A stretch of DNA of 64,000 nucleotides from Vogesella sp. XCS3 (GTDB lineage Bacteria; Pseudomonadota; Gammaproteobacteria; Burkholderiales; Chromobacteriaceae), in the NCBI RefSeq assembly GCF_020616155.1, contig NZ_CP085530.1:1053501-1117500 (forward strand). Reading direction: 5' to 3'. A program made the position numbers and the translations under genes. Each line of letters opens with the position of its first letter. Position 1 is the first letter of the stretch. This document shows positions 1,971 to 63,405 of the stretch, in pieces. The notes under the pieces are model-generated. The model saw only the letters and a program-made list of their open reading frames with translations. It did not search any database and was not told the origin of the DNA.

Positions 1971-1998
1971 GACAGGCCAACAGGCGGCCAACCATTGC

Positions 1999-3252
1999 TC
2001 AGGCAAAACGCCGCGAGGCATCCAGCGCCAGGCCGCTGCCGATACTGCCGTAGCGGTCGCCTTCCACCGCGCGGGCAGCTGGGAACATGGCAGCGATACG
2101 CTCGCGCAGCAGCGGCACGCCGCTGGAGCCGCCGGTAAAGAACACGGTATCCACCTCGCCCGCCTGCAGCTGCGCGTCGGCCAGCAAGCGCGCCACCGTC
2201 GTTTCAATGCTGACAATCTGCTTTCCGATGGCCTCGTCAAAATCGCCGCGCAAGATGTCATGAAACAGCCCCCGCTCGATCTCGCCCATCTCCAGGCGGG
2301 TTTGCGGCGCGTCGGACAGCGCAATCTTGGCCGCCTCTACCTGGATCGCCAGCCAGTGGCCAGCGCGCTTGTCGATCAGCGAGAACAGGCGGTCCAGCTT
2401 GCCCTGCTCCAGCGCGTCCGGGTACACACCCTGCAAATCGGACAAGGCTTTGCGCGTATAGGCAAAGTTGATGGTATGCCAGGTAGCCAGGTTGAAGTAA
2501 AAGCCCGATGGCACCTCGGCATTGTTCTTCAGGCGCGAGCGGTAGCCCAGCTGCGGCATTACCGAATACAGGCTCAGCTGCTTGTCAAAATCGGCACCGC
2601 CAATATGCACGCCGCCATTGGCCAGAATATCGGCGCGGCGGTCCAGCAGGTGGGCGCGTTCGGGCGCCAGGCGCAGCAAGGAGAAGTCGGAGGTACCACC
2701 GCCGATATCCACGATCAACACCAGTTCTTCGCGCTGGATGCGGCTTTCGTAGTCGAAGGCTGCGGCGATGGGCTCGAACTGGAAGGCCACCTCTTTGAAG
2801 CCCACTTTGCGTGCAATCTCGCCCAGGGTGTCTTGCGCCAGGCGGTCGGCTACCGGGTCGTCATCCACAAAGAAAACCGGGCGGCCAAACACCGCCTGCT
2901 CGAAACCTCGGCCGGCGTTCTGCTCGGCGCGCTGCTTAAGCTGGCCAATAAACATGGACAGCAAGTCCAGAAAACGCAAAGGCCGGCCTTGCACCTCGGT
3001 CTGGCCGTTCATCAGGCTGGTGCCCAGAATGCTCTTGAGCGAGCGCATCAGGCGGCCTTCGTAGCCATCCAGGTACTCGGCAATGGCCGCGCGGCCAACG
3101 GTGGTGCTTTCTTCTTCGGCATTGAAAAAGATCACCGATGGCAAGGTGGTTTTGCCCTCTTCCAGCGCCAACAGGCTGGGCACACCGGGGCGGCACCAGC
3201 CTACTGTCGAATTGGACGTACCAAAGTCCACGCCACAGGCTTGTACAGTCAT
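1999..3252 (-). CDS. Hsp70-family ATPase domain protein (YegD-like)
   Basis: A 417-residue protein with the actin/Hsp70 nucleotide-binding fold but no substrate-binding domain, as in YegD. The N-terminal phosphate-1 loop is GVDFGTSNSTV at about residues 7-17. Phosphate-2 is VDIGGGTSDFS in the middle of the protein, and the adenosine motif is FTGGSSGVP near the C-terminus. It is probably a cytoplasmic chaperone-like or regulatory ATPase; partners are unknown. I start at the ATG at 3252, because an upstream in-frame Met (3273) adds seven residues that precede the family start. The start lies close to the end of the neighbouring Mpo1-like gene on the same strand (45 bp). Confidence 0.92.
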   Translation of the reverse strand: MTVQACGVDFGTSNSTVGWCRPGVPSLLALEEGKTTLPSVIFFNAEEESTTVGRAAIAEYLDGYEGRLMRSLKSILGTSLMNGQTEVQGRPLRFLDLLSMFIGQLKQRAEQNAGRGFEQAVFGRPVFFVDDDPVADRLAQDTLGEIARKVGFKEVAFQFEPIAAAFDYESRIQREELVLIVDIGGGTSDFSLLRLAPERAHLLDRRADILANGGVHIGGADFDKQLSLYSVMPQLGYRSRLKNNAEVPSGFYFNLATWHTINFAYTRKALSDLQGVYPDALEQGKLDRLFSLIDKRAGHWLAIQVEAAKIALSDAPQTRLEMGEIERGLFHDILRGDFDEAIGKQIVSIETTVARLLADAQLQAGEVDTVFFTGGSSGVPLLRERIAAMFPAARAVEGDRYGSIGSGLALDASRRFA

Positions 3253-3297
3253 GTTTATCCACCCCTCAGGCAAAAGGAGCGGGATTATAGCGAATCT

Positions 3298-3810
3298 TCA
3301 GCGACCTGCCGCGACTTTCTGCACTGCACGCACCGGGCCGGCACCTTCTATGATGCGCGCTTGCAAATCACGGTAAAACCCCAGCAAAAACAGCCACTCA
3401 GCCATCACGAACAGCGGCCCCACCAGCAAACCTACCAAGTCGTCGACAAAGGCCGGCTTGCGCCCCTCGTACCAGTGGCCGACAAACTGTATTACCCAGC
3501 CGGCCACAAACAACATCAGCCCCAGCCAGCCACCCCATGGCAAAGCAGCCAGCTGCACACCGGCCCAGCCGGCCAACAGCATGAATGCCGCCATGAGTGC
3601 CCCCAGACCCAGATCCAGCCGCAGATAGAACACGATGGCACCCAGCAATACCGGGTGCAGCGCCGACAGCCCCAGCACCAGCGGTAAACAGGCCAGCAAT
3701 ACGGCCACCGCCAGCACGATGAGTGGAATGCCGACAAAGTGGGTATGGATATTGCGCAGATCGCGGTGATAAGCGGCGTAATTGACTAAATGCGCTTGCA
3801 GCGTTTTCAT
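3298..3810 (-). CDS. Mpo1-like (DUF962) membrane protein
   Basis: A 170-residue multi-pass membrane protein of the DUF962/YGL010w family, whose yeast member Mpo1 is an Fe(II)-dependent dioxygenase in fatty-acid alpha-oxidation. The conserved N-terminal block NYAAYHRDLRNIHTHFVGIP supplies the histidines, and a second block, FVGHWYEGRKPAF, lies near residues 120-135. Four hydrophobic helices separate them. A GGAGG ribosome site precedes the ATG. Its start is only 30 bp from the start of the divergent Crp/Fnr-type gene. Whether it oxidises 2-hydroxy acids here is inferred from the family. Confidence 0.9.
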   Translation of the reverse strand: MKTLQAHLVNYAAYHRDLRNIHTHFVGIPLIVLAVAVLLACLPLVLGLSALHPVLLGAIVFYLRLDLGLGALMAAFMLLAGWAGVQLAALPWGGWLGLMLFVAGWVIQFVGHWYEGRKPAFVDDLVGLLVGPLFVMAEWLFLLGFYRDLQARIIEGAGPVRAVQKVAAGR

Positions 3811-3840
3811 GGCGAACCTCCATCATCAGGAAGCACCATC

Positions 3841-4539
3841 ATGCCCTTGCCGCACGAGGCGTTCTGTCAAGCTGGCGACAAAACCGGGGCTTTGCGCCTG
3901 CTGGCTGACAGCAGCTGGTTTGCCAGCCTGCCAGACACCCTGCAAACCAGCCTGCAAACGCTGGGTCGCAGCCGCAGCCTGCCCGCGGGCGGTTATCTCT
4001 TTCTGCAAGGCGACCCGGCAGACGGGCTGTATGGCATTTTGCAAGGCAGCGTGCTGATTGGCAGCAGCTCGGCAGTAGGCAAAAACAGCGTGCTGGCGCG
4101 CCTTGCCCCCGGCCAGTGGTTTGGCGAGGTCGCGCTGTTTGACCAGGGCCCGCGCACACACAATGCCCATACCGATAGTGGCTGCCTGCTGTGGCATGTA
4201 CCACACGGCGCACTACTGGCCTGGCTGGAAGGTTGGCCGCAGGGCTGGTACTACCTGGGTCAGCTCATGGCAGGGAAAACCCGCCAGCTCATGAGCGGGC
4301 TGGCGCAACAAACGCTGCTGTCACCGGAAGCCCGCGTGGCACAGCGCCTGCTCTTGCTTGCCGGCGATGGCCAAGCCGTGAGCCTGAGTCAGGAAGCATT
4401 GGCCAGCGCCACCGGCATTAGCCGGCAAACCTGCAATACCATTCTGGGCCAGTTGGCAGACGCCGGGCTGATCAGCATAGCGCGCAAACAGCTTACCCTG
4501 CTGAACCGGCCAGCCCTGCTGCGTATTGGCGCAAATTAG
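3841..4539 (+). CDS. Crp/Fnr-family transcriptional regulator
   Basis: A 232-residue regulator with an N-terminal cyclic-nucleotide-binding-like beta barrel (about residues 20-135; glycine-rich turns at DPADGLYGIL and GQWFGEVALFDQG) and a C-terminal winged helix. The recognition helix lies around ATGISRQTCNTILGQLADAG. The FNR-type N-terminal cysteine cluster is absent, so it is not an oxygen-sensing FNR; the ligand is unknown. The ATG at 3841 has an AGGAAG site upstream. An in-frame ATG at 3790 would overlap the divergent gene. Copies of the repeated 10-mer lie in the gene at 4231 and just downstream at 4787. Confidence 0.9.
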   Translation: MPLPHEAFCQAGDKTGALRLLADSSWFASLPDTLQTSLQTLGRSRSLPAGGYLFLQGDPADGLYGILQGSVLIGSSSAVGKNSVLARLAPGQWFGEVALFDQGPRTHNAHTDSGCLLWHVPHGALLAWLEGWPQGWYYLGQLMAGKTRQLMSGLAQQTLLSPEARVAQRLLLLAGDGQAVSLSQEALASATGISRQTCNTILGQLADAGLISIARKQLTLLNRPALLRIGAN

Positions 4540-4586: not shown

Positions 4587-5606
4587 ATGAGCCTGCTAAA
4601 CACCCACGCCATGGGGCGAGCCCTGGCCAGCCGCCTGTTATTCCTGTTTGCCCTGGTGCTGAGCGCTGTCGTCATGGGTACGCTGGGCTACCACCTGCTG
4701 GAAGGGTGGAGCCTGTTTGACAGCCTGTACATGACGGTGATTACCCTGGCCACCATCGGCTATGGCGAAACCCACCCGCTGGACATGGTTGGCCGCGCCT
4801 TTACCGTGGTGCTGATCATTTTTGGCACCGGCGTTATGGGCTACGGCATTTCTTCCCTCACCCTGCTGCTATTCCAGGGCGACCTGCCCCACTACCTGCG
4901 CGTACGCAAAATGGACAAAATCATCTCCCGCCTGGAAAACCACATCATTATCTGCGGCCTCAGCCGTACAGGGCTGTATGCGCTGGAAGAGCTGACACGC
5001 AGCGGGCACGATGTGGTGATAATCGAAAAAAGCGAAGCACAGATACAGCAATGGCTAGGTGGCAAAGAACGCCCCTATATCGTGGGCGACGCCACCGAAG
5101 ACGACAATCTGCTGGCAGCAGGCATCGAGCGCGCCCAGGCCATCATCACCAGCCTGACCTCCGACGCCGACAATGCCTTTGTGGTGGTAACCGCGCGCAG
5201 CCTAAACAGCCAGCTGTCCATCGTGTCGAAAGCCGAAACCGAAAGCGCCCGCAAGAAACTGCTGGCGGTCGGTGCGGATCAGGTAGTGATTCCGTCCTAC
5301 CTGGGCGGGATGAATATGGCCAATCTGGTGATCAAACCGGAAACCCTGCATTTTTTCGAGCGCCTGCACACGCGCTACCCCAACACCTTCCGCGCGCAGG
5401 TAGTGCCGGTAGAGCCGTTGTGGGTTGGCCGCAGCATTGCCGAGTGCATGCCGGTAAGCGACGGCAGCGTGATTGTGGTGGCACTGGAAATGCCGGGTGG
5501 CGAAGTCGCCTTCAACCCACCGGCCGAAACCTTGCTATACGAAGGCCAGTCGCTGATGATCATCGGCCGCAAAGCCGTACACGCCCCACCGGTCACCCAG
5601 GCGTGA
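4587..5606 (+). CDS. RCK-containing potassium channel
   Basis: A 339-residue channel subunit. Two transmembrane helices (about residues 14-35 and 68-97) flank a pore loop with the K+ selectivity filter TIGYG at residues 56-60. A TrkA-N/RCK domain (IIICGLSRTG near 120-129) and a TrkA-C domain (about residues 255-335) follow. This architecture resembles MthK-like and Kch-like ligand-gated K+ channels of the inner membrane. The gene stands alone and ends at a palindromic terminator. Two repeat copies (4787, 5423) lie within it, in different reading frames. Confidence 0.93.
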   Translation: MSLLNTHAMGRALASRLLFLFALVLSAVVMGTLGYHLLEGWSLFDSLYMTVITLATIGYGETHPLDMVGRAFTVVLIIFGTGVMGYGISSLTLLLFQGDLPHYLRVRKMDKIISRLENHIIICGLSRTGLYALEELTRSGHDVVIIEKSEAQIQQWLGGKERPYIVGDATEDDNLLAAGIERAQAIITSLTSDADNAFVVVTARSLNSQLSIVSKAETESARKKLLAVGADQVVIPSYLGGMNMANLVIKPETLHFFERLHTRYPNTFRAQVVPVEPLWVGRSIAECMPVSDGSVIVVALEMPGGEVAFNPPAETLLYEGQSLMIIGRKAVHAPPVTQA

Positions 5607-5610: not shown

Positions 5611-5648
5611 CATGAAAAAAGGTTGGCCGCGGCCAACCTTTTTTCATG
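5611..5648. terminator. 38-bp perfect palindrome terminator built from two opposed repeat copies
   Basis: Positions 5611-5648 read identically on both strands: CATG, A6, the repeat 10-mer, its overlapping complement, T6, CATG. The copies at 5621-5630 and 5629-5638 are in opposite orientation. The T and A runs on either side make it a bidirectional terminator between the convergent K+ channel and ppnP genes. Paired inverted uptake sequences acting as terminators are known in Neisseria. Confidence 0.9.
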
Positions 5649-9697: not shown

Positions 9698-11761
9698 CTA
9701 TAAGTCACGGGCTACCTCTTCCGGGCTGGCCAAGGCCGGCTCGCAGGGCAGCCACACGCGAAATGCCGCGCCACCGGCCGCCAGGTTGGCCGCATGAATA
9801 TCCCCGCCGTAGCGCTCCACCAGGCCGTGGCATACCCACAAACCCAAGCCACTACCTTCCGCCTTGCGCGTAAAGAACGGCGTAAACAGCTGCGCCATAT
9901 CCCCCGGCGCAATGCCAGGGCCGCTGTCCGACACGGTCAGCAGCACGCCAGCCTGGCCGTCCACACCGGGGCAATCCCGCGTAGCCAGCGATAACATGCC
10001 ACCTTCCGGCATGGCCTGCAGTGCGTTGAGCAACAGATTGATCAACACCTGCTGAAGCTCGTAACGGTTTACCAGCAAAGCGCCCGCAGCCTGCCAATCC
10101 TTGCTGACGGCAACGTGGCTGCGCCCCAGCTGATGGCTGACTAGCACCAGGCTATCCTGGAACACCTCCTCGGGACGCACCTGCTGCAGGTAGCCCGAGT
10201 ACTCGCTTGGGCGAGCGTACTGCAGTAGCTTGGCCACAATCAGCCGGATGCGCTGCACCTGCTCGTTCAGCAGACGGAACTCCTCCGCCACTGGCAGCCC
10301 AGCCTCGCCCAGCAGCTCGCGCATCAGCTCGAGATTGCCCTGCATGACCGCTACCGGGTTATTCACCTCGTGCGCAATGCCCGCCGCCAGCTGGCCAATG
10401 GCCGCCAGCTTTTCCGATTTGAACAGTTGCTGCTGCGCCGTCAGCAGGGTCTGGTTGGCCGCAGCCAGTTCGCGCGTGCGCTCGGCCACCTTGTCATCCA
10501 GCTCGGCAGCCCAGCGCGTCAGCGCCTGGTTTTGCGACTGGATACGGTCCAGCAGGTGGTCAAAATGGCTGGCCAGCATGGCCAGCTCGTCGTCCTGCGG
10601 CAAGCTGCCCACGCGGGCATCCAGCTGCCCCGCTTCCACCTGGCGCATGGTGGCGCGCAGCCGCCCTACCGGGTGGATAACCGACTGGGCAAAACGCCAG
10701 CTCACCCAGGCCGCTACCGCCATGGTGATGGCAAACAGCACAAACAACACGGCCAGCGCCATCCATTTGGCCAGCACAAAAGGCTGCTCCAGAAAGCCCA
10801 CATACAGCATGCCCACCCGCTCGCCACGACTATCCTGCAAGGGCTGATAGCCAGAGACATACCAGTCACCCACTACCAGCGCCCGATCCAGCCATAGCTG
10901 GCCATGCTCCAGCACACGGTCGGCTACCGCACCAGACACCCTGGTGCCGGTAGCCCGCCCGCCCTGGGGCAAGGCCACGGTGGTGGCGATACGCACATCA
11001 CCCAGAAACAGCGTAGTCGAGCCACGGCTACGCTGCGGCAACGAGCCCGGCGGGTAAACCAGATGCTGGATGCGGTCGACAAAGTCCACATTGCGATTCA
11101 GCAGCAGCCCCCCCACCAGCGCCAGGCGCCGCCCGGGCACCGCAGCGGCAGCGTGCAGCACCAGCCCGGACAGGCTCTGCTGCTGCAGGCTGGGCCGGGC
11201 ACCCCGCGTAGGGCGCAGCTCGATGCGCGCCCGCTGCGCCAATGCCGGAGACAGTGCAGCCAACTGCGCCGGGCTGAACGTATCCAGCGCGACACGATTC
11301 TGCCCGGCCAGGCCGGCAGCCAGCACGCTGCCATCCGGGTAGACCGGGTGCGGCGTGCCGCGCAGGGAGCTCGCCAACACCTGTTGGCGCTCATCTACCA
11401 GCAGCAGGTAATCCAGCGCCAGCGACTGCGCCCGCGACTGCAACAGCGCATCCAGCCCGGCACCGGGGCGACGCCAGGCATCGGCCAGCGCTTCGGAGTT
11501 GGCCAGGGCTTCGATATTGCGGCCAACATCACCCTGCACCCGCTCAAAGTACGTGGTTGCCACCGCCAGGTCGCTACGCACCTTGAACACCAGCAGCTCC
11601 TGAAAAGCCGCCCCGCCCCAGCCGGCCAGCAACAGCAACAGCACGGGGAACCCCACCACCAGCGGGAACAGCGCCAACGCGACAAAGCGGTTGCGCACCG
11701 AGCGGTTCAGCGGCTGCATCAGCCGCTGCCACAGCCGCGCTACTCGCCCCAGGCCAGACAT
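9698..11761 (-). CDS. membrane sensor histidine kinase of the formate dehydrogenase locus
   Basis: A 687-residue kinase. A first membrane helix (about residues 27-48) precedes a large periplasmic double-Cache-like sensor region. A second helix (about 330-355) leads into HAMP, a coiled-coil stretch, HisKA with the H-box GIAHEVNNP (His about 464) and an HATPase domain with a G-box GSGLGLW near 638. It overlaps the start of its upstream partner, the NtrC-type regulator, by 22 bp, so the two are co-transcribed and form a two-component pair. The sensed signal is not visible; formate or a respiratory cue is inferred from the locus. Confidence 0.92.
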   Translation of the reverse strand: MSGLGRVARLWQRLMQPLNRSVRNRFVALALFPLVVGFPVLLLLLAGWGGAAFQELLVFKVRSDLAVATTYFERVQGDVGRNIEALANSEALADAWRRPGAGLDALLQSRAQSLALDYLLLVDERQQVLASSLRGTPHPVYPDGSVLAAGLAGQNRVALDTFSPAQLAALSPALAQRARIELRPTRGARPSLQQQSLSGLVLHAAAAVPGRRLALVGGLLLNRNVDFVDRIQHLVYPPGSLPQRSRGSTTLFLGDVRIATTVALPQGGRATGTRVSGAVADRVLEHGQLWLDRALVVGDWYVSGYQPLQDSRGERVGMLYVGFLEQPFVLAKWMALAVLFVLFAITMAVAAWVSWRFAQSVIHPVGRLRATMRQVEAGQLDARVGSLPQDDELAMLASHFDHLLDRIQSQNQALTRWAAELDDKVAERTRELAAANQTLLTAQQQLFKSEKLAAIGQLAAGIAHEVNNPVAVMQGNLELMRELLGEAGLPVAEEFRLLNEQVQRIRLIVAKLLQYARPSEYSGYLQQVRPEEVFQDSLVLVSHQLGRSHVAVSKDWQAAGALLVNRYELQQVLINLLLNALQAMPEGGMLSLATRDCPGVDGQAGVLLTVSDSGPGIAPGDMAQLFTPFFTRKAEGSGLGLWVCHGLVERYGGDIHAANLAAGGAAFRVWLPCEPALASPEEVARDL

Positions 11762-13155
11762 TTGCGCTCCAGCGTCTTGCGCGAGATCCCCAAGCGGCGT
11801 GCCGCCTCGGACTTGTTGCCACCACAGGCCGCCAGAATGGCGCGGATATGGCGACTTTCCACCTCAGCCAGGCACTCATCCGCACCGGCCAGGTTGGCCG
11901 CAGGCTCGCCAGCCGGGCTGGCACTCCCAGCAGCACGCGTGCACGGCAGGTCGCGCGGTACATAACCCAGAATCAGCGAGCGCTCTACCAGGTTCTTCAA
12001 CTCGCGCACATTGCCCGGCCAGTCGTACGCAGCCATGGCCGCGAGAATGGCCGGCTCCACCTCTACCGGCTGCACCCCCAGCGCGGGGCTGAGCAGGTCC
12101 ATAAAGTGCGCGGCCAACTCGGGCAGGTCTTCGGTACGCTCACGCAGCGGCGGCAAGTGCAGCTCCAGCACCTGCAGCCGGTAATATAAATCGGCGCGGA
12201 AGCGGCCTGCGGCCACCTCGTCCGCCAGCGGTTTGTTGGTTGCCGCGATCACGCGCACGTCCACCTTGATTTCCTGCTCCGAACCCACCGGGCGGATGCG
12301 GCGCTCCTCCAGCACACGCAGCAGCTTGGCCTGGATGGGCAAAGGCAGCTCGCCGATTTCATCCAGAAACAGCGTACCGCCGCGGGCGTAGTAAAACAGG
12401 CCATCACGGCTGCCGGTAGCGCCGGTATACGCCCCCTTCACATGGCCGAACAGCTCGCTTTCGATGAGTTCCTGCGCAATGGCAGCACAATTGACCGGCA
12501 CAAAGCTGGCATTGGCGCGCGGGCTTTGCTGGTGCAGCGCGCGGGCCACCACTTCTTTGCCGGTACCGGACTCACCCTGTATCAGCACAGTAGAAGGCAT
12601 GGGCGCAAAGCGCTGCAGCAGCGTGCGCAGCTCGGCGATGGCCGGCGAGTGGCCAATAAGGCCGTCGCGGCTGACATGGCTGCGGCTGGCGTGCGAGGCC
12701 ACCTCGCGGCGCAACACCCAGTTTTCTGCCTCCAGCCGTGCGCGCTCGAAGGCGCGCCTTGCCGAGTTGATCAGCTGCGCCAGCGAAAACGGCTTCAGCA
12801 GAAAGTCCGAAGCGCCGGCGCGCAAGGCGTCGATAGCGGTTTCCACGTCCGCAAACGCCGTCATCAGGATGACTTCGCTGTTCACGCCGCGCTCGCGCAG
12901 CTGCTTGAGCCAATTCACCCCCGACATGCCGGGCAGGGAAATATCCAGCACGATCAAATCGAAACGCTGCTGCGCTACCAGTGGCTCGGCGTCCTCGACG
13001 CTACCGGCGGTATGCACGCTACCGCAGCGCACTTCCAGCGCGCGACGGATGAAGTTCACCATACCCGGCTCGTCATCCACCACCAGCACGCTATAGCTGC
13101 CCCATGGCTTGGCCGCATTCTCGGCGGCAGCCGCCAAGGTGTTTTCTTGCTGCAA
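11740..13155 (-). CDS. NtrC-family sigma-54 response regulator
   Basis: A 471-residue activator. The receiver domain has VVDDEP and phospho-acceptor Asp in IVLDISLPG (about residue 71). An AAA+ ATPase domain follows, with Walker A GESGTGKE and the sigma-54-contacting loop present as GAYTGA, a common variant of GAFTGA. The C-terminal Fis-type helix-turn-helix is GNKSEAARRLGISRKTLERK. I start at TTG 13155, which has an AAGGAG site 8 nt upstream; a longer ATG frame (13203) has no such site and runs through the predicted operator. It probably drives the divergent fdh operon. Confidence 0.92.
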   Translation of the reverse strand: MQQENTLAAAAENAAKPWGSYSVLVVDDEPGMVNFIRRALEVRCGSVHTAGSVEDAEPLVAQQRFDLIVLDISLPGMSGVNWLKQLRERGVNSEVILMTAFADVETAIDALRAGASDFLLKPFSLAQLINSARRAFERARLEAENWVLRREVASHASRSHVSRDGLIGHSPAIAELRTLLQRFAPMPSTVLIQGESGTGKEVVARALHQQSPRANASFVPVNCAAIAQELIESELFGHVKGAYTGATGSRDGLFYYARGGTLFLDEIGELPLPIQAKLLRVLEERRIRPVGSEQEIKVDVRVIAATNKPLADEVAAGRFRADLYYRLQVLELHLPPLRERTEDLPELAAHFMDLLSPALGVQPVEVEPAILAAMAAYDWPGNVRELKNLVERSLILGYVPRDLPCTRAAGSASPAGEPAANLAGADECLAEVESRHIRAILAACGGNKSEAARRLGISRKTLERKCLAWGE

Positions 13156-16443: not shown

Positions 16444-17346
16444 ATGGCACTGCAATCACTTGATATTACCCGCCGCTCCGCCAGCCCCACGGCCAGCCCG
16501 CAGGCGCGCAAGACCATCGAAATCGCCAAACTGATCGACGTTTCCACCTGTATCGGCTGCAAGGCCTGCCAGGTAGCCTGTTCGGAGTGGAACGACATCC
16601 GCGAGGAGGTTGGCCACAACATCGGCGTGTACGACAACCCTACCGACCTGAGTGCCGACGCCTGGACGGTGATGCGCTTTGCCGAAGAAGAAAGCAACGG
16701 CAAGCTGGAATGGCTGATCCGCAAAGACGGCTGCATGCACTGCGCCGACCCCGGCTGCCTGAAAGCCTGCCCGTCGCCGGGTGCCATCATCCAGTACAGC
16801 AACGGCATTGTGGATTTCCACCAGGAAAACTGCATCGGCTGTGGCTACTGCATTTCCGGCTGCCCGTTCAACGTGCCGCGCATCAGCAAGAAGGACAACA
16901 AGGCCTACAAATGCACCATGTGCTCGGACCGCGTATCGGTGGGCCAGGAGCCGGCCTGCGTGAAAACCTGCCCTACCGGCGCCATCCAGTTCGGTAGCAA
17001 GGAAGACATGAAAGACGTGGCCGCCACCCGCGTGGCCGACCTGAAAAACCGCGGCTACGCCAATGCCGGCCTGTACGACCCGCAAGGCGTGGGTGGCACC
17101 CACGTGATGTACGTACTGCACCACGCCGACAAGCCGGAGCAGTACTCGGGCCTGCCGAAAGACCCGGCCATCAGCACCACCGTGCAGCTGTGGAAAGGCT
17201 GGCTCAAACCGCTGGCCACCATCGGTATTGCCGCAGCCGGCCTGTTCGGTTTCTTCCACTACATCACCGTGGGCCCGAACCGCCCGGACGACGAAGATGA
17301 ACACGCTGCGGCCAACCCTGCCGCCAAACAGGAGGACAAGGCATGA
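16444..17346 (+). CDS. fdhB: formate dehydrogenase iron-sulfur subunit (FdnH/FdoH type)
   Basis: A 300-residue electron-transfer subunit. Cysteine clusters for four 4Fe-4S centres are visible: [11 protein letters not shown] (about residues 36-46), [14 protein letters not shown] (about 98-111), [12 protein letters not shown] (about 132-143) and CTMCSDRV followed by CVKTCP. A C-terminal membrane helix (about 245-265, [15 protein letters not shown]) anchors it to the periplasmic face. It passes electrons from FdhA to the cytochrome b subunit. Its start is 13 bp after fdhA, and its stop overlaps the gamma-subunit ATG (ATGA). Confidence 0.96.
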
Positions 17347-42773: not shown

Positions 42774-42774
42774 G

Positions 42775-44893: not shown

Positions 44894-45397
44894 TCAGGCC
44901 TCCTTGCGCTTCTTGGGCACCCAGGCCCACACCATTTCACACACGATGGGCGATTCGCCGGACTCGTCGGTCACCACCACGTCCACCAGCACATCGCCTT
45001 TATCCTCCACAAACATGCGCTGCACCTGCTCGGCGTTCAGCGTGGCAACGGCACGCATATCGCCCTGGGCACGCTTGTAATAGCTGACTTTCATCGACTT
45101 GAGCAGCATCAGTTTGTCGTCCGGCACGTTCATGCCCACCACAAAACCCGACGCCGTTTCGGCTAGCAGCGCCATGGCGGCGGCGTGCAGGCCTTTAATG
45201 TGGTTTTGTACTTTTTTGCGGTTTTTGACGCTCACCACCATGCGTTCGCGGCCAACCTCCTCGAATACCAGGCCGGCGGTACCCAGAAACGGTACAAATT
45301 TGCCGAACATGCGGGTAATGACCCAGGAACGCATACCGGCCGGCAGGCTGGCGGTTTTGTCCACCATACGGCACATACTGTTTTTTGCTGTTGTCAT
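44894..45397 (-). CDS. DUF4442 hotdog-fold thioesterase-like protein
   Basis: A 167-residue hotdog-fold protein of the DUF4442 family, putative acyl-CoA thioesterase. The central KNRKKVQNHIKGLHAAAMALLAET segment corresponds to the long hotdog helix, and VSYYKRAQGDMRAVA to a core strand. It lies between the tetR-type gene and the crotonase. The substrate is not known. A repeat copy lies at 45248. Confidence 0.87.
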   Translation of the reverse strand: MTTAKNSMCRMVDKTASLPAGMRSWVITRMFGKFVPFLGTAGLVFEEVGRERMVVSVKNRKKVQNHIKGLHAAAMALLAETASGFVVGMNVPDDKLMLLKSMKVSYYKRAQGDMRAVATLNAEQVQRMFVEDKGDVLVDVVVTDESGESPIVCEMVWAWVPKKRKEA

Positions 45398-49201: not shown

Positions 49202-50218
49202 TTACAGCGTGCGCCCCACCACGGCCGCCAATGGCCGCAGCGTCGCCAGCAGTTCATCCAGTGCATCTGGGGTAATAGCCTGCTCGGCATCACACCAGGC
49301 TTGCTGCGGGTTGTCGTGTACTTCCAGCAGCAGGCCATCAGCCCCCGCCGCGATAGCCGCGCAGGCTAGCGGCGCTACCAGGCTGGAGCGGCCACCGGCG
49401 TGGCTGGGGTCGACCAGCACCGGCAGGTGGGTTTCTCGCTTTAACAGCGGTATGGCGCTGATGTCCAGCGCGTGGCGGCTGGCGGTATCGAAGCTGCGGA
49501 TGCCGCGCTCGCAGAACACGATGTTGTGGTTGCCGCCCACCGCGATGTACTCGGCAGCCATCAGCCACTCGCTCAGGGTAGAAGCCACACCGCGGTGCAG
49601 CAGCACCGGCTTGTTGATGCGGCCAACCTCTTTCAGCAGCTCCACGTTCTGCATATTGCGCGGGCCGATCTGGATCACGTCCACGTCGTACGCCAGAAAG
49701 GTATCCAGCTGGCGCACATCCAGCAGCTCGCTCACCATCGGCATGGCCTGGCTACGCGCAGCCTGCTGCAAGTAGTCCAGCCCCGCCTCGCCCACACCCT
49801 GAAAAGCATACGGACTGGTACGCGGCTTGTAGGCCCCGCCACGCAGCAACCCGACACCACTGCGGCGCAGGCGGGTAGCCAGTGCCTGCATTTGCCCGGC
49901 GCTTTCGATGGCACTGGGGCCGGCAATCAGCTGGATGGCGCTGCCGCCTAGCTGCACGCCACGCACCGACACCACGCTATTGTCCGGTTTGACTTCGCGC
50001 GAGACGATGCGGTAGTCCTTCAGCACACGAATAGCACGCTCCACGCCAGGCATGGTTTCGAACATGTCGGCAGACAGCACACGCTCGTCACCCACGGCGC
50101 CGATAATGGTGCGCTCGGTACCGCGCGACAGGTGTTCGGCCAAGCCGGCGGCGCGAATCTTGGCCACCACCGCATCGATATCGGCAGGGTTGGCCCGGCC
50201 GTGCATTACGATAATCAT
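49202..50218 (-). CDS. 3-deoxy-7-phosphoheptulonate (DAHP) synthase, type I-beta, Ser at the metal Cys position
   Basis: A 338-residue DAHP synthase, first enzyme of the shikimate pathway (PEP plus erythrose 4-phosphate). An N-terminal ferredoxin-like regulatory domain (about residues 1-70) precedes the barrel, as in the Thermotoga enzyme. GGAYKPRTSPYAFQG, LLEVHDNPQQAW and VDPSHAGGRSS are conserved. The cysteine that normally coordinates the metal (AGPC) is Ser102 (codon AGT) here; the Glu, His and Asp ligands are kept. It may be metal-relaxed, or a paralogue with altered activity. It sits next to pheA. Confidence 0.9.
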   Translation of the reverse strand: MIIVMHGRANPADIDAVVAKIRAAGLAEHLSRGTERTIIGAVGDERVLSADMFETMPGVERAIRVLKDYRIVSREVKPDNSVVSVRGVQLGGSAIQLIAGPSAIESAGQMQALATRLRRSGVGLLRGGAYKPRTSPYAFQGVGEAGLDYLQQAARSQAMPMVSELLDVRQLDTFLAYDVDVIQIGPRNMQNVELLKEVGRINKPVLLHRGVASTLSEWLMAAEYIAVGGNHNIVFCERGIRSFDTASRHALDISAIPLLKRETHLPVLVDPSHAGGRSSLVAPLACAAIAAGADGLLLEVHDNPQQAWCDAEQAITPDALDELLATLRPLAAVVGRTL

Positions 50219-50858: not shown

Positions 50859-51932
50859 TTACAGTACGGCTTGCGGGTAGGCACCCAGCACTTTGACAAA
50901 CGACGTGCGCTCGCCCAGGCCTTTCAGTGCCTGCGCGATATTGTCGCTGCTGTGGTGGCCTTCCATATCGATAAAGAACACATAGTCCCATAGCCCGGCA
51001 CGCGACGGGCGCGACTCGAACTTGGTCATGGAGACACCGTTGGCCGCAAGCGGCTCCAGCAGCGAGTGCACCGCGCCCGGGCGGTTTGGCGCCGACACGA
51101 TAATGGAGGTTTTGTCTTGTGCAGTCTGGCCGACTTCCTGATGGCCCAGCACCAGGAAGCGCGTGGTGTTATTGGGCTCGTCTTCGATATTCTCGGCCAG
51201 CTTGGCCAGGCTGTAACGCTCGGCAGCGGCCTGGCCGGCGATAGCGGCGCAGTCGGCGTCTTCTGCGGCCAACCTGGCCGCTTCGGCATTACTGGCCACC
51301 GAAATGCGCTCTACATGCGCCGGCAGGTTTTTGTTCAGCCATTCGTGGCACTGCGCCAGCGCCTGGGCGTGGGCGTATACGCGACGGATGCCGTCCATGG
51401 CAGGAGTTTTGCGCAGCAGGTGGTGGTGGATGCGCAGCACCACTTCACCACAAATTTTCAGCGGGGTGCTTACCATCAAGTCCAGCGTGCGGCCCACGGC
51501 GCCTTCGGTGGAGTTTTCTACCGGCGCCACCACGTAGTCCAGTTGGCGCGACTCTACCAGGCGGAAGGCCTCGTCGATGGACGCACAGGCCACCGTGCGG
51601 GCGGCATGGCCGAAATGTTTGAGCGTAGCGAGCTGGGTAAAGCTGCCCTCCGGCCCCAGGTAGGCAATGGACAATGGCTTTTCCAGTGCCAGGCATTCCG
51701 ACATGATTTCGCGGAACAGGCGCGCTACCGACTCGCCCGGCAGCGGGCCGGGGTTCAGCGTCTTGATGCGGCGCAGCACCTGTGCTTCGCGCTCGGGGCG
51801 GTAGATAATGCCGCCACCCTTGATTTCGCCGATGTCACGCGCGTGCTGCGCGCGCTGGTTGAGAAGATGCAGGATATCGACGTCAATCTGGTCGATAGCG
51901 TCACGATGGAGCTTGAGGAGGTCTTCAGACAC
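50859..51932 (-). CDS. pheA: bifunctional chorismate mutase/prephenate dehydratase PheA
   Basis: A 357-residue P-protein for phenylalanine synthesis. The N-terminal chorismate mutase (about residues 1-85; RDAIDQIDVDILHLLNQRA) is followed by prephenate dehydratase (about 90-270; YLGPEGSFTQLA, VAPVENSTEGAV, NTTRFLVLG). The C-terminal ACT domain (about 283-355) has ESRPSR for Phe feedback. The length is normal. Downstream genes on the strand are LOG, DAHP synthase and OsmC; upstream lies an O-methyltransferase gene (3 bp gap). Confidence 0.96.
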   Translation of the reverse strand: MSEDLLKLHRDAIDQIDVDILHLLNQRAQHARDIGEIKGGGIIYRPEREAQVLRRIKTLNPGPLPGESVARLFREIMSECLALEKPLSIAYLGPEGSFTQLATLKHFGHAARTVACASIDEAFRLVESRQLDYVVAPVENSTEGAVGRTLDLMVSTPLKICGEVVLRIHHHLLRKTPAMDGIRRVYAHAQALAQCHEWLNKNLPAHVERISVASNAEAARLAAEDADCAAIAGQAAAERYSLAKLAENIEDEPNNTTRFLVLGHQEVGQTAQDKTSIIVSAPNRPGAVHSLLEPLAANGVSMTKFESRPSRAGLWDYVFFIDMEGHHSSDNIAQALKGLGERTSFVKVLGAYPQAVL

Positions 51933-52705: not shown

Positions 52706-53919
52706 GCCTGCGCCCCGGCCGCGGCAACCGGCACCTCTTTTACCGGCAGGTTGGCCGCAGCGGCCATCAACCCCAGCGCAATAGCCATGCCCCACACAAT
52801 GTCGTAGCTGCCGGTACGGTCGTAAATCAGCCCACCCAGCCACACGCCCAGAAAGCTGCCCACCTGGTGCGAGAAAAACACCGCACCCGACAGCATGCCC
52901 AGGTTGCGCACGCCAAACAGGCTGACAATCACGCCATTGGTCAGCGGCACGGTAGACAGCCACAAGAAGCCGATGGCCGCCGCAAACAGCCCCACCGACA
53001 CACTGGACAAAGGCGCCAGCAGAAAGGCCACAATCACCACGCTACGGGCAAAATAGATACCCGCCAGCAAATACGGTTTGGGGTAACGCCCGCCCAGCTT
53101 GCCCGCGGTATAGGTACCACCGATATTGAATAGCCCGATCAATGCCAGCGCCATGCTGGCCACGCCGCCAGCCAGGCCGTGGTCGCGCAGATAGGCTGGT
53201 AAGTGCACGCCGATAAACACCACCTGGAAACCACAAACGAAATAGCCAGCCATCAGCAAACGGAACGAGCGCTGCTGCCAGGCCTGGGCAAACGACGCCA
53301 CCATGCCCTGCCAGATGCTGCCGGTAGCCGCCGGTACCGGCGGGGCATTGCGGTAGGCCCGCGCCATGGGGGCAGCCAAGGGCAAAAGCGCCGCCGCCAT
53401 GCCGGCCAGAATGAGCAATGCCGGCACCCAGCCCAGGCTATCGATCAGGCCGCGCTCGATGGGCACCATCATGAACTGGCCAAACGAGCCCGCCGCCGCC
53501 GTAATGCCCATGGCGCTGGAACGCAGCGCGTCCGGTACCGCGCGCACAATAACACAGAACACCACGCTATAGGTGGTACAGGATAGCGCCAGCCCCAGCA
53601 GCAAGCCGGCCGAGCCGGACAGCAGCCAGCCGGTGCTGGACACTGTCATCAGCACCAGACCCAGCACGTATAGCAAACCACCGGCCAGCAATACCTTGCC
53701 CGGCCCGTGCCGGTCGGCAAAAGCACCGGCAAATGGCTGGGTGGCACCCCACACCAGGTTTTGCAGACCCAGTGCCAGCGCGAAGGTTTCGCGCGTCCAG
53801 CCAAACGCTTGCGTCATCGGCGGCAGGAAAAAACCGAAACCGTGGCGCACGCCCATGCTGATAGACACAATCGCCCCCGCAGCCAGCAACAACAGGGTAA
53901 GTGGGGACAAGGTACGCAT
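52702..53919 (-). CDS. MFS transporter (monocarboxylate/oxalate-formate antiporter-like)
   Basis: A 405-residue transporter with 12 predicted helices. The N-terminal GVRHGFGFFLPPMTQAFGW, the motif-A-like GAFADRHGPGKVLLAGG, and the later FNIGGTYTAGKLGGRYPK and FSHQVGSFLGVWLGGL are typical of the CynX/OxlT-type MFS group for organic anions. The substrate is unknown. ATG 53919 has a GGAG site; an alternative start lies five codons upstream. A repeat copy is at 52749. Confidence 0.9.
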   Translation of the reverse strand: MRTLSPLTLLLLAAGAIVSISMGVRHGFGFFLPPMTQAFGWTRETFALALGLQNLVWGATQPFAGAFADRHGPGKVLLAGGLLYVLGLVLMTVSSTGWLLSGSAGLLLGLALSCTTYSVVFCVIVRAVPDALRSSAMGITAAAGSFGQFMMVPIERGLIDSLGWVPALLILAGMAAALLPLAAPMARAYRNAPPVPAATGSIWQGMVASFAQAWQQRSFRLLMAGYFVCGFQVVFIGVHLPAYLRDHGLAGGVASMALALIGLFNIGGTYTAGKLGGRYPKPYLLAGIYFARSVVIVAFLLAPLSSVSVGLFAAAIGFLWLSTVPLTNGVIVSLFGVRNLGMLSGAVFFSHQVGSFLGVWLGGLIYDRTGSYDIVWGMAIALGLMAAAANLPVKEVPVAAAGAQA

Positions 53920-54057: not shown

Positions 54058-54104
54058 CTTGGATTTTGCAGGCCGCACAGGCATGCGGCCAACCTTTGGC
54101 GCTA

Positions 54105-55701: not shown

Positions 55702-56171
55702 GGTTTGTCCTCCACCTGCAGCATGGGTTTGGGGTTGGAGCCGCGCATGAAGGTGGCCACACCATGGGCAATCGGGTCATCCGGTGAATCGTGATAGCAC
55801 ACGGCACGGGTAAACGCGATCTGGCTGGCCATGCGGTAGCACTCCGCGGTGCAGTAGATGGCCTTGCCAGGGGTGGCCGCTTTCAGGTAATCGATACGCA
55901 GATCCAGCGTGGCGATGGTCTCGTAGTCCTGCATATTGGCCGCCACCGATACCGCGCTGGTGGTGTCAACAATGGAGGTAATCACCCCGCCGTGCACCAC
56001 GCCGGTGGCCGGGTTGCCCACCAGGTCTTCCCGCCACGCCACCCGCAGTGTTGGCTTGCGGCCAACAGTACCCAGATATTCAAAGCCCAGGGTGCGGCAA
56101 TGCGGCAAGCTGACAAACAGCTCGCCCATTGCCTTCAGCACTTCGGGGTTGGCCGCATCGGCATGACTCAT
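55698..56171 (-). CDS. PaaI-type hotdog thioesterase (first of a pair)
   Basis: A 157-residue acyl-CoA thioesterase-like protein. [18 protein letters not shown] (about residues 58-75) has the HGG motif and the catalytic-type Asp. [14 protein letters not shown] completes the core. Its ATG overlaps the gyrA stop (ATGA at 56168-56171), so it is translationally coupled to DNA gyrase, an unusual partner. A repeat copy spans its first codons (56147). Confidence 0.88.
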
Positions 56172-58846
56172 TCAGCCGCGCCCTCGCCCGCCTCGGCTGC
56201 CGGTGCTGCTGTGTCGTCTGCAGCCAGCTCGGCATCTGCGTCAGCCTCGCTGCTGTCTTCGCTCTCGGCCACTTTTACCAGGCACACCAGTTTTTCACCG
56301 TCGTCCAGGTTGATCAGGCGCACGCCCTGTGCCGAACGGCCGGTTTCGCGAATCTGGTCTACCTTGGTACGGATCAGCACACCACCGGTGGTAATCAGCA
56401 TCACATCGTCGCTGTCTTCCACCAGGCTGGCCGACACCAGCCCCAGGCCGGTTTTATCGGTGAGGTCCATGGCGATCACGCCCTGGGTGCCACGGCTGGT
56501 CTGGCGGAATTCGCCCACGCGGGTACGCTTGCCGTAGCCGCCATCGCTGGCGGTGAGCACCTGCTGCTCGTCGCTATTGGCTACCAGCAGCGAGATGACC
56601 TGCTGGCCTTCTGCCAGCATCATGCCGCGCACACCACCGGCAGTACGGCCCATGGCGCGTACATTGGCTTCGTCAAAGCGCACAGCTTTGCCGGCGTTGC
56701 TGAACAGCATGACCTGGTCGCTACCGCTGGTCAGGGCTACGCCCACCAGGGTGTCGCCTTCGTCCAGTTTCACCGCGATGATGCCGGCGGTACGCGGGCG
56801 GCTGAACGCCTCCAGCGGAGTTTTCTTAACGGTACCGTTGCCGGTGCACATGAAGACAAACGGGCCTTCCACCTTGTCGCTTACCTCGGCGTCGTCGTCC
56901 AGCTCCGGCTCGTTACCGGTAAAGGCCTTCACCGGCAGCATGGCGCTGATTTTCTCGCCATCCTGCAGCGGCAGCACGTTGACGATAGGCTTGCCACGGC
57001 TGGTGCGGCCGCCTTGCGGCATGTTGTACACCTTGATCCAGTAGCAGCGGCCAAAGCTGGAGAAGCACAGCACGTAGTCGTGGGTGTTGGCCACGAACAG
57101 CGTGTTGATGAAATCGTCGTCCTTGGTGGCTGCCGCCTGCTTGCCACGGCCACCACGGCGCTGCGCCTGGTAGTCGCCCACTGGCTGCGCTTTCAGGTAG
57201 CCGGTATGCGACAGGGTAACCACCATTTCCTGCGGCGTGATCAGGTCTTCGATATTGATATCGCCACCGAAAGGCTCGATCTCGGAGCGGCGCTTGTCGC
57301 CGTATTGCAGGCGGATGGCAGTCAGCTCGTCGTGAATGATCTGGTTGATGCGCTCCGGGCGCGCCAGAATATCGATCAGGTCGAGGATGGTTTCCATGAT
57401 CTCGCGGTACTCGCCCACGATCTTGTCTTGCTCCAGGCCGGTCAGGCGCTGCAGGCGCAGGTCCAGAATGGCCTGTGCCTGGGCTTCGGACAGGTAGTAG
57501 CCGTCTGCGTGCAGGCCCAGGTTGGCCGCCAGACCTTCCGGGCGAGCCTGGCTCTGGTCTACGCGGGCCAGCATGCCTTCCACCAGCTCGGAACGCCACG
57601 CGCGGCCCAGCAGGGCTGCCTTGGCTTGCGGCGGCGCTTCGGATGCCTTGATCAGCGCAATGATCTCGTCCACATTGGACAGTGCTACGGCTAGGCCTTC
57701 CAGGATATGGCCGCGTTCGCGTGCTTTGCGCAGCTCGAAAATGGTACGGCGCGTGACCACTTCGCGGCGGTGGCGCAGGAACTCGTCAATAATCTGCTTC
57801 AGGTTCAGCAGGCGCGGCTGGCCGTCGACCAGCGCTACCATATTGATGCCGAAGCTATCCTGCAGCTGGGTCAGCTTGTACAGGTGGTTCAATACCACCT
57901 CGGGCATTTCGCCACGCTTGAGCTCGATCACCACGCGCATGCCGGATTTATCCGATTCGTCGCGCAGGTCGGAAATGCCTTCGATCAGTTTCTCGCGTAC
58001 CAGCTCGCTGATACGCTCCAGCAGGCGGGCCTTGTTCACCTGGTACGGAATCTCGTCCACGATGATGGCCTGGCGGTCGCCCTTGCCGATGTCTTCAAAG
58101 TGCACGCGGGCGCGCATGATGGCGCGGCCACGGCCGGTACGGTAGGCTTCCTTGATGCCGGCAGTACCGTAGATGATGCCGGCGGTAGGGAAGTCCGGCG
58201 CCGGGATGATGTCGATCAGCTCGTCGATGGTCATCTCGCTATTGGCCAACAGGGCCAGGCAGCCATCGATGACTTCGTTGATGTTGTGCGGCGGAATGTT
58301 GGTGGCCATACCCACGGCGATACCGGCAGCACCGTTGATCAGCAGGTTCGGGATTCGCGAAGGCAGAATCAGCGGCTCGTGCTCGGAGCCGTCGTAGTTG
58401 GGGCCAAAATCGACGGTTTCCTTGTCGATGTCAGCCAGCAGCTCGTGCGCAATACGCGCCATGCGGATTTCGGTATAACGCATCGCGGCGGCGTTATCGC
58501 CGTCCACCGAGCCGAAGTTACCCTGGCCGTCTACCAGCGGGTAGCGCAGGCTGAAATCCTGCGCCATGCGCACGATGGTGTCGTAGACGGCGCTGTCGCC
58601 GTGCGGGTGATACTTACCGATTACGTCACCCACGATACGGGCAGACTTTTTGTAGGCACGGTTCCAGTCGTTCGACAGTTCGTGCATGGCAAACAGCACG
58701 CGGCGGTGTACCGGTTTCAGGCCGTCACGCACGTCCGGCAGGGCACGGCCCACGATTACGCTCATGGCGTAATCGAGATAAGAACGACGCATCTCCTCTT
58801 CGAGGCTGATGGGAAGCGTTTCCTTGGCAAAAAGCTGGTCGGTCAT
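56168..58846 (-). CDS. gyrA: DNA gyrase subunit A
   Basis: An 892-residue type II topoisomerase subunit that breaks and rejoins DNA. The catalytic Tyr124 lies in [11 protein letters not shown]. The quinolone-resistance region reads [16 protein letters not shown] with Ser85 and Asp89 (E. coli 83 and 87), the sensitive type. The GyrA box QRRGGRGKQ marks the DNA-wrapping domain. An acidic insert ([13 protein letters not shown]) in that domain and a very acidic, Ala-rich C-terminal tail extend the protein. The start is ATG 58846. Confidence 0.97.
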
Positions 58847-61505: not shown

Positions 61506-61537
61506 CAAAAGCCCCGCACATCAGTGCGGGGCTTTTG
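61506..61537. terminator. terminator after tRNA-Thr
   Basis: A 14-bp stem (CAAAAGCCCCGCAC and its complement) with an ATCA loop. Confidence 0.9.
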
Positions 61538-61560
61538 TCATTACGGCTGCCCGTTCGCAG

Positions 61561-61586
61561 CAAAACGCCCCGCCAAAGCGGGGCGT
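61561..61586 (-). terminator. terminator of the Atm1-type exporter gene
   Basis: A 10-bp AACGCCCCGC/GCGGGGCGTT stem with a CAAA loop. T4 follows on the minus strand, 26 bp past the stop. Confidence 0.85.
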
Positions 61587-61611
61587 TGCCACATGCGGCC
61601 AAGCTTGCGAC

Positions 61612-63405
61612 TCAGGCTTCCAGCGCCTCGCCCTCTTGCTGCAAGCGCCACATTTCTGCGTAACGCCCGCCCTGCGCCAGCAGCTCGCGGTGCGTACCGC
61701 GCTCGATAATATGGCCACCATCCATCACCAGAATGCAATCCGCCTCGGCGATGGTCGATAGCCGGTGCGCAATGATCAGCGTGGTACGGTTGGCCGCAAT
61801 ACTGAGCAGCTCGGCCTGGATGGCCTTCTCGGTACGCGAATCCAGTGCACTGGTCGCCTCGTCAAAAATCAGCACCGGCGGGTTTTTCAGGATGGTGCGG
61901 GCAATGGCCACACGCTGCTTTTCGCCGCCAGACAGCTTGAGGCCGCGCTCGCCCACGGTGGTGTCGTAGCCATCCGGCAGGCCCATCACAAAGTCGTGGA
62001 TATGCGCCGAACGGGCAGCCTCGATCACCTCTTCCCGCGTGGCATCGGGCCGGCCATAAGCAATGTTGTAGTAGATGCTGTCGTTAAACAGCACCGTGTC
62101 TTGCGGCACGATGCCGATATGCGCACGCAGGCTATCCTGGCTGAGCTCGCGAATATCGCTACCGTTAAAGCAGATCGCCCCGCTGCTGACATCGTAAAAA
62201 CGGAACAGCAGGCGCGACAGCGTGGATTTGCCCGCACCGCTCGCTCCCACCACCGCCACGGTATGGCCGGCAGGAATATCAAAGCTGACGTCGTGCAAAA
62301 TGGTGCGTTTGGCATCGTAGCCAAAGCCGACGCCATCAAAACGGATCGCCACATCGCGGCTAGCCAAGGGCTGAGCCGTCGGGCGGTCTGCCACCTCGGC
62401 ACCCACATTCAGCAGTGTGAACATGCGCTCCATGTCGGCCAGCGAATGGCGGATTTCGCGGTAAACAAAGCCCAGAAAATGCAGCGGCGCCCACAGCTGG
62501 GTAATAAAGGTGGCCACCAGCACCACATCCCCCACCGTCATTTCGCCCTGGTTAACCCCGCGTGCGGCCAACCACATGATCAGCGTCACACCGGTGGCAA
62601 TGATCACGCCCTGCCCCGCGTTCAGGAACGATAGCGACACCTGGTTCTTGATGGCGGACTGCTCCCACGACGCCAGGTTGCCGTCGTAGCGGCGGGTTTC
62701 GTAGCCCTCGTTGCCAAAGTACTTGACCGTTTCGTAGTTGATCAGCGCATCGATGGCCTTGCTGTTGGCCTTGGAATCCAGATCATTCATGCTGCGGCGA
62801 AATACCGTGCGCCACTCGGTAATCACCAGGGTAAACACGATATAAATGGCAATGGTGGCAAAGGTCACCACGGCAAACCAGGCGTTATAGCGATGCAGCA
62901 AAATGCCGATCACCAGGCCGATTTCCACCAGCGTGGGCAAAATGTTGAACACGGTAAAGTTCAGCAAAAAACCAATGCCCTTGGTACCGCGCTCGATATC
63001 GCGGCTCATGCCGCCCGTCTGGCGCTCCAGGTGAAAACGCAGGCTCAGGCGGAACAGGTGCGAAAACACCTCGCGCGCCACCGTGCGCACCGCCCCCTGC
63101 ACCACGCGGGCAAAAATGGCATCGCGCAGCTCGCCCAGCACGCTGGACAGCAAGCGCGCCAGGCCATAGCCGGCCAGCGCCAGCAGCGGCACCACCGCCA
63201 TGGTGGCCGGCAACGACAGCTGGTCCACGATATCTTTCAGGTACAGCGGCGTGGCAACACCCGCTACCTTGGCCGCAATCAGGCAAGCCAGCGCCAGCAG
63301 CACGCGCAGCTTGAAGCGCCACAGGTAGGGCAGCAGGGTCTTCAGGGTTTTCAGGTCGTTACGGTCGGTAGGCGGCGGGGTATTGCCGTGGGCAAAATGA
63401 CGCAT
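61612..63405 (-). CDS. Atm1-type ABC exporter (fused permease and ATPase)
   Basis: A 597-residue half-transporter. Six membrane helices (about residues 30-320) precede an ATPase domain with Walker A GASGAGKS, signature LSGGEKQRVAIAR, Walker B VLIFDEATSALD and the switch His in IIAHRLSTIAEAD. YFGNEGYETRRYDGNLASWE and SLSFLNAGQGVIIATG are typical of Atm1/ABCB7-type proteins, which export glutathione-linked sulfur or metal compounds. The substrate is inferred from the family. Two repeat copies (61788, 62564) lie within it. Confidence 0.92.
   Translation of the reverse strand: MRHFAHGNTPPPTDRNDLKTLKTLLPYLWRFKLRVLLALACLIAAKVAGVATPLYLKDIVDQLSLPATMAVVPLLALAGYGLARLLSSVLGELRDAIFARVVQGAVRTVAREVFSHLFRLSLRFHLERQTGGMSRDIERGTKGIGFLLNFTVFNILPTLVEIGLVIGILLHRYNAWFAVVTFATIAIYIVFTLVITEWRTVFRRSMNDLDSKANSKAIDALINYETVKYFGNEGYETRRYDGNLASWEQSAIKNQVSLSFLNAGQGVIIATGVTLIMWLAARGVNQGEMTVGDVVLVATFITQLWAPLHFLGFVYREIRHSLADMERMFTLLNVGAEVADRPTAQPLASRDVAIRFDGVGFGYDAKRTILHDVSFDIPAGHTVAVVGASGAGKSTLSRLLFRFYDVSSGAICFNGSDIRELSQDSLRAHIGIVPQDTVLFNDSIYYNIAYGRPDATREEVIEAARSAHIHDFVMGLPDGYDTTVGERGLKLSGGEKQRVAIARTILKNPPVLIFDEATSALDSRTEKAIQAELLSIAANRTTLIIAHRLSTIAEADCILVMDGGHIIERGTHRELLAQGGRYAEMWRLQQEGEALEA

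Follow-up and report, generated by a model that had tools for sequence, protein, structure and literature searches.

The Vogesella 10-mer GGTTGGCCGC as a probable DNA uptake sequence, one of several related dialects in Chromobacteriaceae

We analysed a 64-kb stretch of a Vogesella genome, hereafter the window (C1:1053501-1117500 of the two-contig, 3.89-Mb genome G000). Sequence comparisons make it very probable that the 10-mer GGTTGGCCGC (12-mer AGGTTGGCCGCA, core GTTGGCCGC) serves Vogesella as its DNA uptake sequence (DUS), and is one dialect of a Chromobacteriaceae set. The window contains 40 exact copies, 22 on the forward and 18 on the reverse strand. The expectation from 100 dinucleotide shuffles was 0.71 (mean) and 3 (maximum). 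A first-pass annotation had counted 39 copies (21 and 18) between positions 1984 and 62573, with fewer than one expected by chance in 64 kb. Our recount of that range was identical, the shuffles bear out the expectation, and the extra copy begins outside the range at 1354. The consensus offered there, aGGTTGGCCGCa, was correct; it can be refined to the strictly kept core GTTGGCCGC, which occurs 60 times in the window. Genome-wide, GGTTGGCCGC has 1,733 copies (879 + 854) and the same word read backwards has 12 (7 + 5). Hence, the frequency is far from normal and the enrichment is not limited to the window. A Markov expectation on sequence stretches also favoured enrichment. Counting in relatives, with controls, revealed related forms in sister genera.

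All 13 Vogesella genomes searched carry 1,406–1,867 copies of GGTTGGCCGC. The 48 genomes from nine other genera of the family have only 15–74 each. We applied a de novo word search to 40 kb from one genome per genus. Related words were recovered from Crenobacter (g5), g6 (one genome of which is 'Crenobacter sp. SG2303'), Gulbenkiania (g7), one of two Paludibacterium groups (g9) and Pseudogulbenkiania (g10). The same search found no related word in Aquitalea (g2), g3 (probably Chromobacterium), g4 or the other Paludibacterium group (g8). Identical or nearly identical pilins identify g5 and g7, and a protein with 99% identity identifies g10. Whole-genome counts of the form GTTGGCCGAA were 2,168 and 579 in g6, 1,245 in Gulbenkiania, 1,851 in g9, 1,104, 893 and 183 in Pseudogulbenkiania and 1,368 in G010, a genome labelled Aquitalea. 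Vogesella genomes have 8–34 copies of GTTGGCCGAA and the remaining family genomes at most 78. The form GTTGGCCGAG has 1,940 and 1,590 copies in Crenobacter (g5), 165 in G036 and at most 92 elsewhere. Some form of the motif is therefore carried by 23 of 61 family genomes. One of these, G047, is weakly positive; it has 183 copies of GTTGGCCGAA genome-wide, yet 32 kb of it gave no motif in the word search.

The sister forms GTTGGCCGAA or GTTGGCCGAG thus occur in five other genera and one Aquitalea-labelled genome. They share the core GTTGGCCG with the Vogesella form, and the three read together as AGGTTGGCCG(C/A)(A/G). The suggestion that the motif is a distinct dialect in a related lineage is supported, and can be widened to a group of three or more related dialects found in six genera plus one genome. 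The word GTTGGCCGCA was present at 9–15 copies per 15–20-kb locus in nine loci found with an alignment of four ComP-like pilins from the genus of our genome, which we infer from these loci to be Vogesella. These came from Vogesella aquatica, oryzae, alkaliphila, indigofera, margarita and fluminis, from 'Beta proteobacterium L13' and from two metagenome-assembled genomes titled Neisseriaceae bacterium. Across the order, GTTGGCCGMA exceeded 1,000 copies in 8 of 399 genomes, all inside the family; counts did not exceed 83 in the other five family genomes sampled or in the 386 genomes from outside it. The same method was applied to family f44. There, the classical Neisseria 10-mer had 1,863–4,285 copies in 8 of 11 genomes, against 6–12 in five Chromobacteriaceae genomes. 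The de novo search also recovered king/sim-type words in G224 and AGGTCGTCTGAA, which we take to be mucDUS, in G315.

We extended the search to 100 kb from each of four motif-negative genomes (G017, G002, G039 and G030). No word was as strong and frequent as those of motif-positive genomes, a tandem repeat in G002 aside. This repeat, of GGGACT in a genome of the Aquitalea genus, yields words counted about 22 times. A weak excess of GCTCTCC-based words was seen in G030 (g4), for example CTCTCCGAG with 8 copies against 0.2 expected. Three Paludibacterium-like genomes of g8 (G040, G041 and G043) have 92, 55 and 85 copies of GTTGGCCGAG, with 21, 22 and 17 for controls. This mild excess is perhaps the remains of a lost dialect.

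We next considered the anatomy of the motif in 464 kb of the host genome (the window plus 20 stretches). The 12-mer AGGTTGGCCGCA has 113 exact copies in this sample. Each single change at positions 4–11 occurs once or never, and changes at position 3 occur at most 7 times. Substitutions are tolerated at positions 1, 2 and 12 only. Within genes, synonymous codon choice at the motif is extreme. Ala-Ala-Asn is written GCG GCC AAC in 121 of 149 cases (15.7 expected), Val-Gly-Arg is written GTT GGC CGC in 53 of 72 (2.7 expected) and Leu-Ala-Ala is written TTG GCC GCA in 83 of 445 (2.7 expected). Hence, the constraint acts at the DNA level. Conservation was compared in one 20-kb stretch around comP with nine relatives. 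Against four close species, 52 of 60 comparisons showed the site of our genome intact; for other 9-mers the share was 31–54%. In five distant species, 8 of 37 were intact, with a background of 7–9%. A further 22 motifs lie in the nine relatives at places that are motif-free in our genome. Site conservation among close relatives thus gives way to turnover at greater distance.

The genome encodes ComEC, DprA and the secretin PilQ. The first-pass annotation had advised looking for a ComP-like minor pilin, and one is present. Its closest solved relatives are Neisseria ComP structures (PDB 5hz7, 2nba and 2m3k), and it scores over the cut-off for Pfam ComP_DUS (PF16732). Like ComP, it has an N-terminal pilin helix, a C-terminal cysteine pair and a conserved [FY]K..ST.WP-like loop; ComP gives its best sequence and fold matches. 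Of 50 loci examined, all but that of G040 yielded a ComP-like protein, which gave 23 from motif-positive and 26 from motif-negative genomes. Eleven motif-negative genomes with weak matches were left out. Two cysteines follow residue 30 in 21 of 23 motif-positive pilins and three in the other 2. ComP is the best PDB match of the pilin of motif-positive G046 (5e-13), and a stronger one than for the pilin of motif-negative G017 (8e-8).

Residue 63 (numbering of our pilin) is lysine in 21 of the 23 motif-positive pilins, arginine in one (G045) and threonine in one (G010). Neither lysine nor arginine occurs there in any of the 26 motif-negative pilins, in counts that span related genomes with relatedness not removed. 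By eye, the equivalent residue is also lysine in nine Neisseria-type ComPs. Genome G224 of f44, picked for a Lys63-type pilin and few classical DUS, was the one that carries king/sim-type words. In G147, whose pilin lacks Lys63, no such word was found in four 20-kb stretches, one of them wholly N. Separately, G224, which resembles Neisseriaceae genomes, encodes a ComP-like pilin with two cysteines and carries mixed AGGCAGCCTGAA-type words. Two other candidate signatures were dropped. N-x-D near residue 95 is shared by several motif-negative pilins, and net charge of the globular part did not separate the groups. Three changes of the motif label are required on a pilin tree (3–4 across bootstraps). 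Only one of them is imposed by well-supported branches, and several long branches are uncertain. The tree fits an old label that was lost several times, and does not demonstrate such a history.

Several observations weigh against a DUS read by this pilin. Two Vogesella genomes with the motif yielded no ComEC: G057, in 330 contigs, and G058, 88% complete. Pfam ComP_DUS is broad, and is annotated on almost every one of the 120 homologues listed, Pseudomonas included. Our pilin has two cysteines where nine Neisseria-type ComPs have four, and so is without the second disulfide. Its C-terminal loop is also short, and the long DD region of Neisseria ComP is missing. A role for both features is described in the accessible part of PMC12061091. 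ComP-like pilins are present in 26 motif-negative genomes, so pilin presence does not predict the motif. One of these, from G017, also has ComP as its best PDB match (8e-8). Motif-positive G010 has threonine at residue 63, not lysine. Finally, a slight strand excess of the motif persists when copies are assigned by GC-skew half.

The alternative that survives best keeps the uptake sequence and changes the receptor. Here, another minor pilin would read the motif, as proposed for Pasteurellaceae. The ComP-like pilins of motif-negative genomes speak for this, as do the 17 pilin-like matches in our genome, of which two were compared with solved structures. However, the second pilin compared matched Pseudomonas aeruginosa PilE, with no ComP among the matches listed. 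In addition, a basic residue 63 tracks the motif (22 of 23 positive against 0 of 26 negative, relatedness not removed). We consider a different receptor unlikely. As a further observation on pilins, three tandem pilin genes, two nearly identical, lie at G000:C1:2272101-2273187.

The placement of copies bears on the other alternatives. Coding and intergenic calls came from a home-made gene caller. Of 428 nine-mers in the 464-kb sample, 323 are genic and occupy all six frames, which upholds the earlier statement that copies fall within genes in several reading frames. Non-coding DNA, 13.0% of bases, holds 103. In the window, 12 of 40 copies are intergenic, 27 are coding and 1 is at an edge; the first-pass annotation had given ten as intergenic. 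Spacing is more even than random (coefficient of variation 0.847 against 0.988, standard deviation 0.045; 0 of 500 random sets were as even). Close pairs, at most 60 bp apart, are no commoner than chance (26 against 23.3), and 24 of the 26 are inverted. Among inverted pairs within 30 bp, 15 of 19 are intergenic and 6 of 19 have a run of T or A. Little strand bias, over-even spacing, mostly intergenic inverted pairs, codon choice, and conservation near with turnover far are all marks of a DUS.

A chromosome-maintenance or recombination motif, such as a Chi-like, KOPS-like or nucleoid-protein site read by RecBCD, FtsK or a DNA-binding protein, would also be genome-wide and evenly spread, and could show the slight strand excess. 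The known Chi and KOPS sites have a clear orientation. By contrast, the strands here are nearly equal in both GC-skew halves (236 nine-mers on the G-rich strand and 192 on the other), close to the lack of strand bias claimed earlier. Intergenic inverted pairs would be unexpected for such a site. Change between related genera, and absence from others, is more readily understood for a self-label than for a housekeeping function. Hence, we find this explanation very improbable. We judge an iterated sequence, or a terminator set spread by copying, to be equally doubtful. HIP1 is such an iterated element in cyanobacteria, and the 6 of 19 inverted pairs with T or A runs do look terminator-like. Nonetheless, most copies are single, the genic majority in all six frames does not suit terminators, and little sequence is shared beyond 12 bases, which argues against a mobile unit. 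Least credible is a methylation or restriction-modification mark: the motif holds a YGGCCR (TGGCCG) site open to modification, with a palindromic GGCC centre, but the whole 9-mer is kept rather than the palindrome, single changes at positions 4–11 are almost absent and enrichment is over 100-fold, unlike that of restriction sites, which are usually avoided in genomes.

All copies in the window, and the pilin gene, are listed in Table 1. The hairpin pair is intergenic and lies between convergent called genes at 4587-5606 (+) and 5661-6047 (-). On the chromosome the density is 0.92 nine-mers per kb, whereas contig C2 (164.5 kb) has 7 nine-mers in all, with a lower GC content (about 52%) that lowers the expectation. 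The low count is compatible with an uptake label and goes no further than that. Contig C2 also has 16 copies of overlapping words spelling TGCTATTAGCACACTCGG. A plasmid search with 20 kb of C2 gave no match.

Table 1. Positions of GGTTGGCCGC in the window and of the ComP-type pilin gene.
Feature	Position	Strand
GGTTGGCCGC copy, outside the range first reported	1354..1363	+
GGTTGGCCGC copy	1984..1993	-
GGTTGGCCGC copy	4231..4240	+
GGTTGGCCGC copy	4787..4796	+
GGTTGGCCGC copy	5423..5432	+
Two GGTTGGCCGC copies (5621 +, 5629 -), head-to-head overlap, one perfect hairpin, A6/T6 flanks, terminator-like	5615..5644	
GGTTGGCCGC copy	9784..9793	+
GGTTGGCCGC copy	10453..10462	+
GGTTGGCCGC copy	11892..11901	+
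GGTTGGCCGC copy	17308..17317	-
GGTTGGCCGC copy	18379..18388	-
GGTTGGCCGC copy	19892..19901	+
GGTTGGCCGC copy	20119..20128	-
GGTTGGCCGC copy	24689..24698	-
GGTTGGCCGC copy	26233..26242	+
GGTTGGCCGC copy	27939..27948	-
GGTTGGCCGC copy	30964..30973	+
GGTTGGCCGC copy	32033..32042	-
GGTTGGCCGC copy	33609..33618	-
GGTTGGCCGC copy	34118..34127	+
GGTTGGCCGC copy	34969..34978	-
GGTTGGCCGC copy	35930..35939	+
GGTTGGCCGC copy	37159..37168	-
GGTTGGCCGC copy	39016..39025	+
GGTTGGCCGC copy	39584..39593	-
GGTTGGCCGC copy	40063..40072	+
GGTTGGCCGC copy	43775..43784	+
GGTTGGCCGC copy	43826..43835	+
GGTTGGCCGC copy	44056..44065	-
GGTTGGCCGC copy	45248..45257	-
GGTTGGCCGC copy	47980..47989	+
GGTTGGCCGC copy	49619..49628	-
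GGTTGGCCGC copy	51265..51274	-
GGTTGGCCGC copy	52749..52758	+
GGTTGGCCGC copy	54085..54094	-
GGTTGGCCGC copy	56147..56156	+
GGTTGGCCGC copy	57520..57529	+
GGTTGGCCGC copy	61788..61797	+
GGTTGGCCGC copy	62564..62573	-
ComP-type minor pilin, outside the window	C1:3106142-3106555	

Laribacter, Lutiella, Pseudogulbenkiania and Chromobacterium belong to Chromobacteriaceae. In the accessible text of their 2013 paper, Frye et al. reported that the first three of these genera and two Chromobacterium genomes lack an obvious DUS (PMC3630211). The eight Neisseriaceae dialects described there all have CTG at +6 to +8 and A at +10. A 2025 paper, as far as its available sections go, still gives eight dialects with inner core CTG (PMC12616744). 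Searches of literature on DNA uptake sequences and dialects, Vogesella, Chromobacteriaceae, Chromobacterium and Pseudogulbenkiania, partly available as excerpts, gave no description of the motif among the papers listed; one such word may be in Table S1D of PMC3630211, a list of 10-mers that are over-represented in Pseudogulbenkiania and Lutiella.

The likenesses to Neisseriaceae DUS, as far as these are set out in the available part of PMC3630211, are a length of about 10–12 bases, thousands of copies, genic and intergenic sites, inverted pairs, lineage dialects one or two bases apart and the presence of ComP. Unlike those dialects, the present forms belong to a different family and have CCG at +6 to +8. 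Two of the three have A at +10, and the Crenobacter (g5) form ends in G. The first-pass annotation was right that the Neisseria core differs, though the difference is small. We compared seven dialects in register, leaving out the eighth, wadDUS. The only bases unseen in them are G at +5 and C at +7, with G at +10 added in g5. At 9 of 12 positions, AGGTTGGCCGAA is the same as simDUS (AGGCTGCCTGAA, PMC10715097) and as AGGTCGTCTGAA. In a fixed register, shuffles match as well in 27–35 of 20,000 cases for the A-ending forms, and in 166 for the G-ending one. The resemblance was noted post hoc: if strand and shift may vary, 9 of 12 identities are attained by 217 of 20,000 shuffled versions of AGGTTGGCCGAA. 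Similarly, 135 of 20,000 reach its 10 of 12 bases seen in the seven dialects, and 1,578 of 20,000 shuffles of the Vogesella form reach its 8 identities. The uptake signal sequences (USS) of Pasteurellaceae, Hin-USS and Apl-USS, are also genome-wide self-labels with dialects and terminator pairs. They differ from the present motif in an unrelated inner core, GCGG, a discontinuous structure and a candidate receptor, PpdA/ComN (PMC12616744, available sections).

The present motif is most simply interpreted as a DUS, but one that is none of the described dialects. The sequence data give strong support to a new set of dialects of an uptake sequence in Chromobacteriaceae. In the mechanism we favour, a type IV pilus with the ComP-type minor pilin would bind double-stranded DNA carrying the motif. 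The pilus would then retract through PilQ, and ComEC and DprA would bring one strand in for recombination. Preferential uptake of tagged DNA from its own kind would cause the motif to accumulate and recombination would keep it. Some inverted pairs may serve a second role as transcription terminators. Binding by the pilin and a rise in uptake are our inferences.

A deeper history is also conceivable, and we put its chances at about even. ComP-based uptake of tagged self-DNA may predate the split of Neisseriaceae and Chromobacteriaceae. From an ancestral DUS, the core would have drifted between CTG and CCG, and the receptor disulfide and DD region would have been gained or lost. The label would then have been lost several times in Chromobacteriaceae (in Chromobacterium-like, Aquitalea and Paludibacterium lines), with ComEC and often the ComP-like pilin retained.

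Pasteurellaceae and Neisseriaceae are the two bacterial families with described uptake sequences, according to the accessible text of PMC7811141. If our interpretation is true, Chromobacteriaceae would be the third. The family offers three dialects differing at two end positions, natural dialect–receptor pairs, and sister lines with the pilin in which no label was seen. Hence, it may be possible to test how ComP reads DNA, using a ComP without the DD disulfide and the switches A/C at +9 and A/G at +10. It could also be tested how a dialect shifts if thousands of copies have to change with it, and whether these copies persist through uptake bias or through selection. The named hosts are free-living water bacteria, and knowledge of the tag should ease their transformation.

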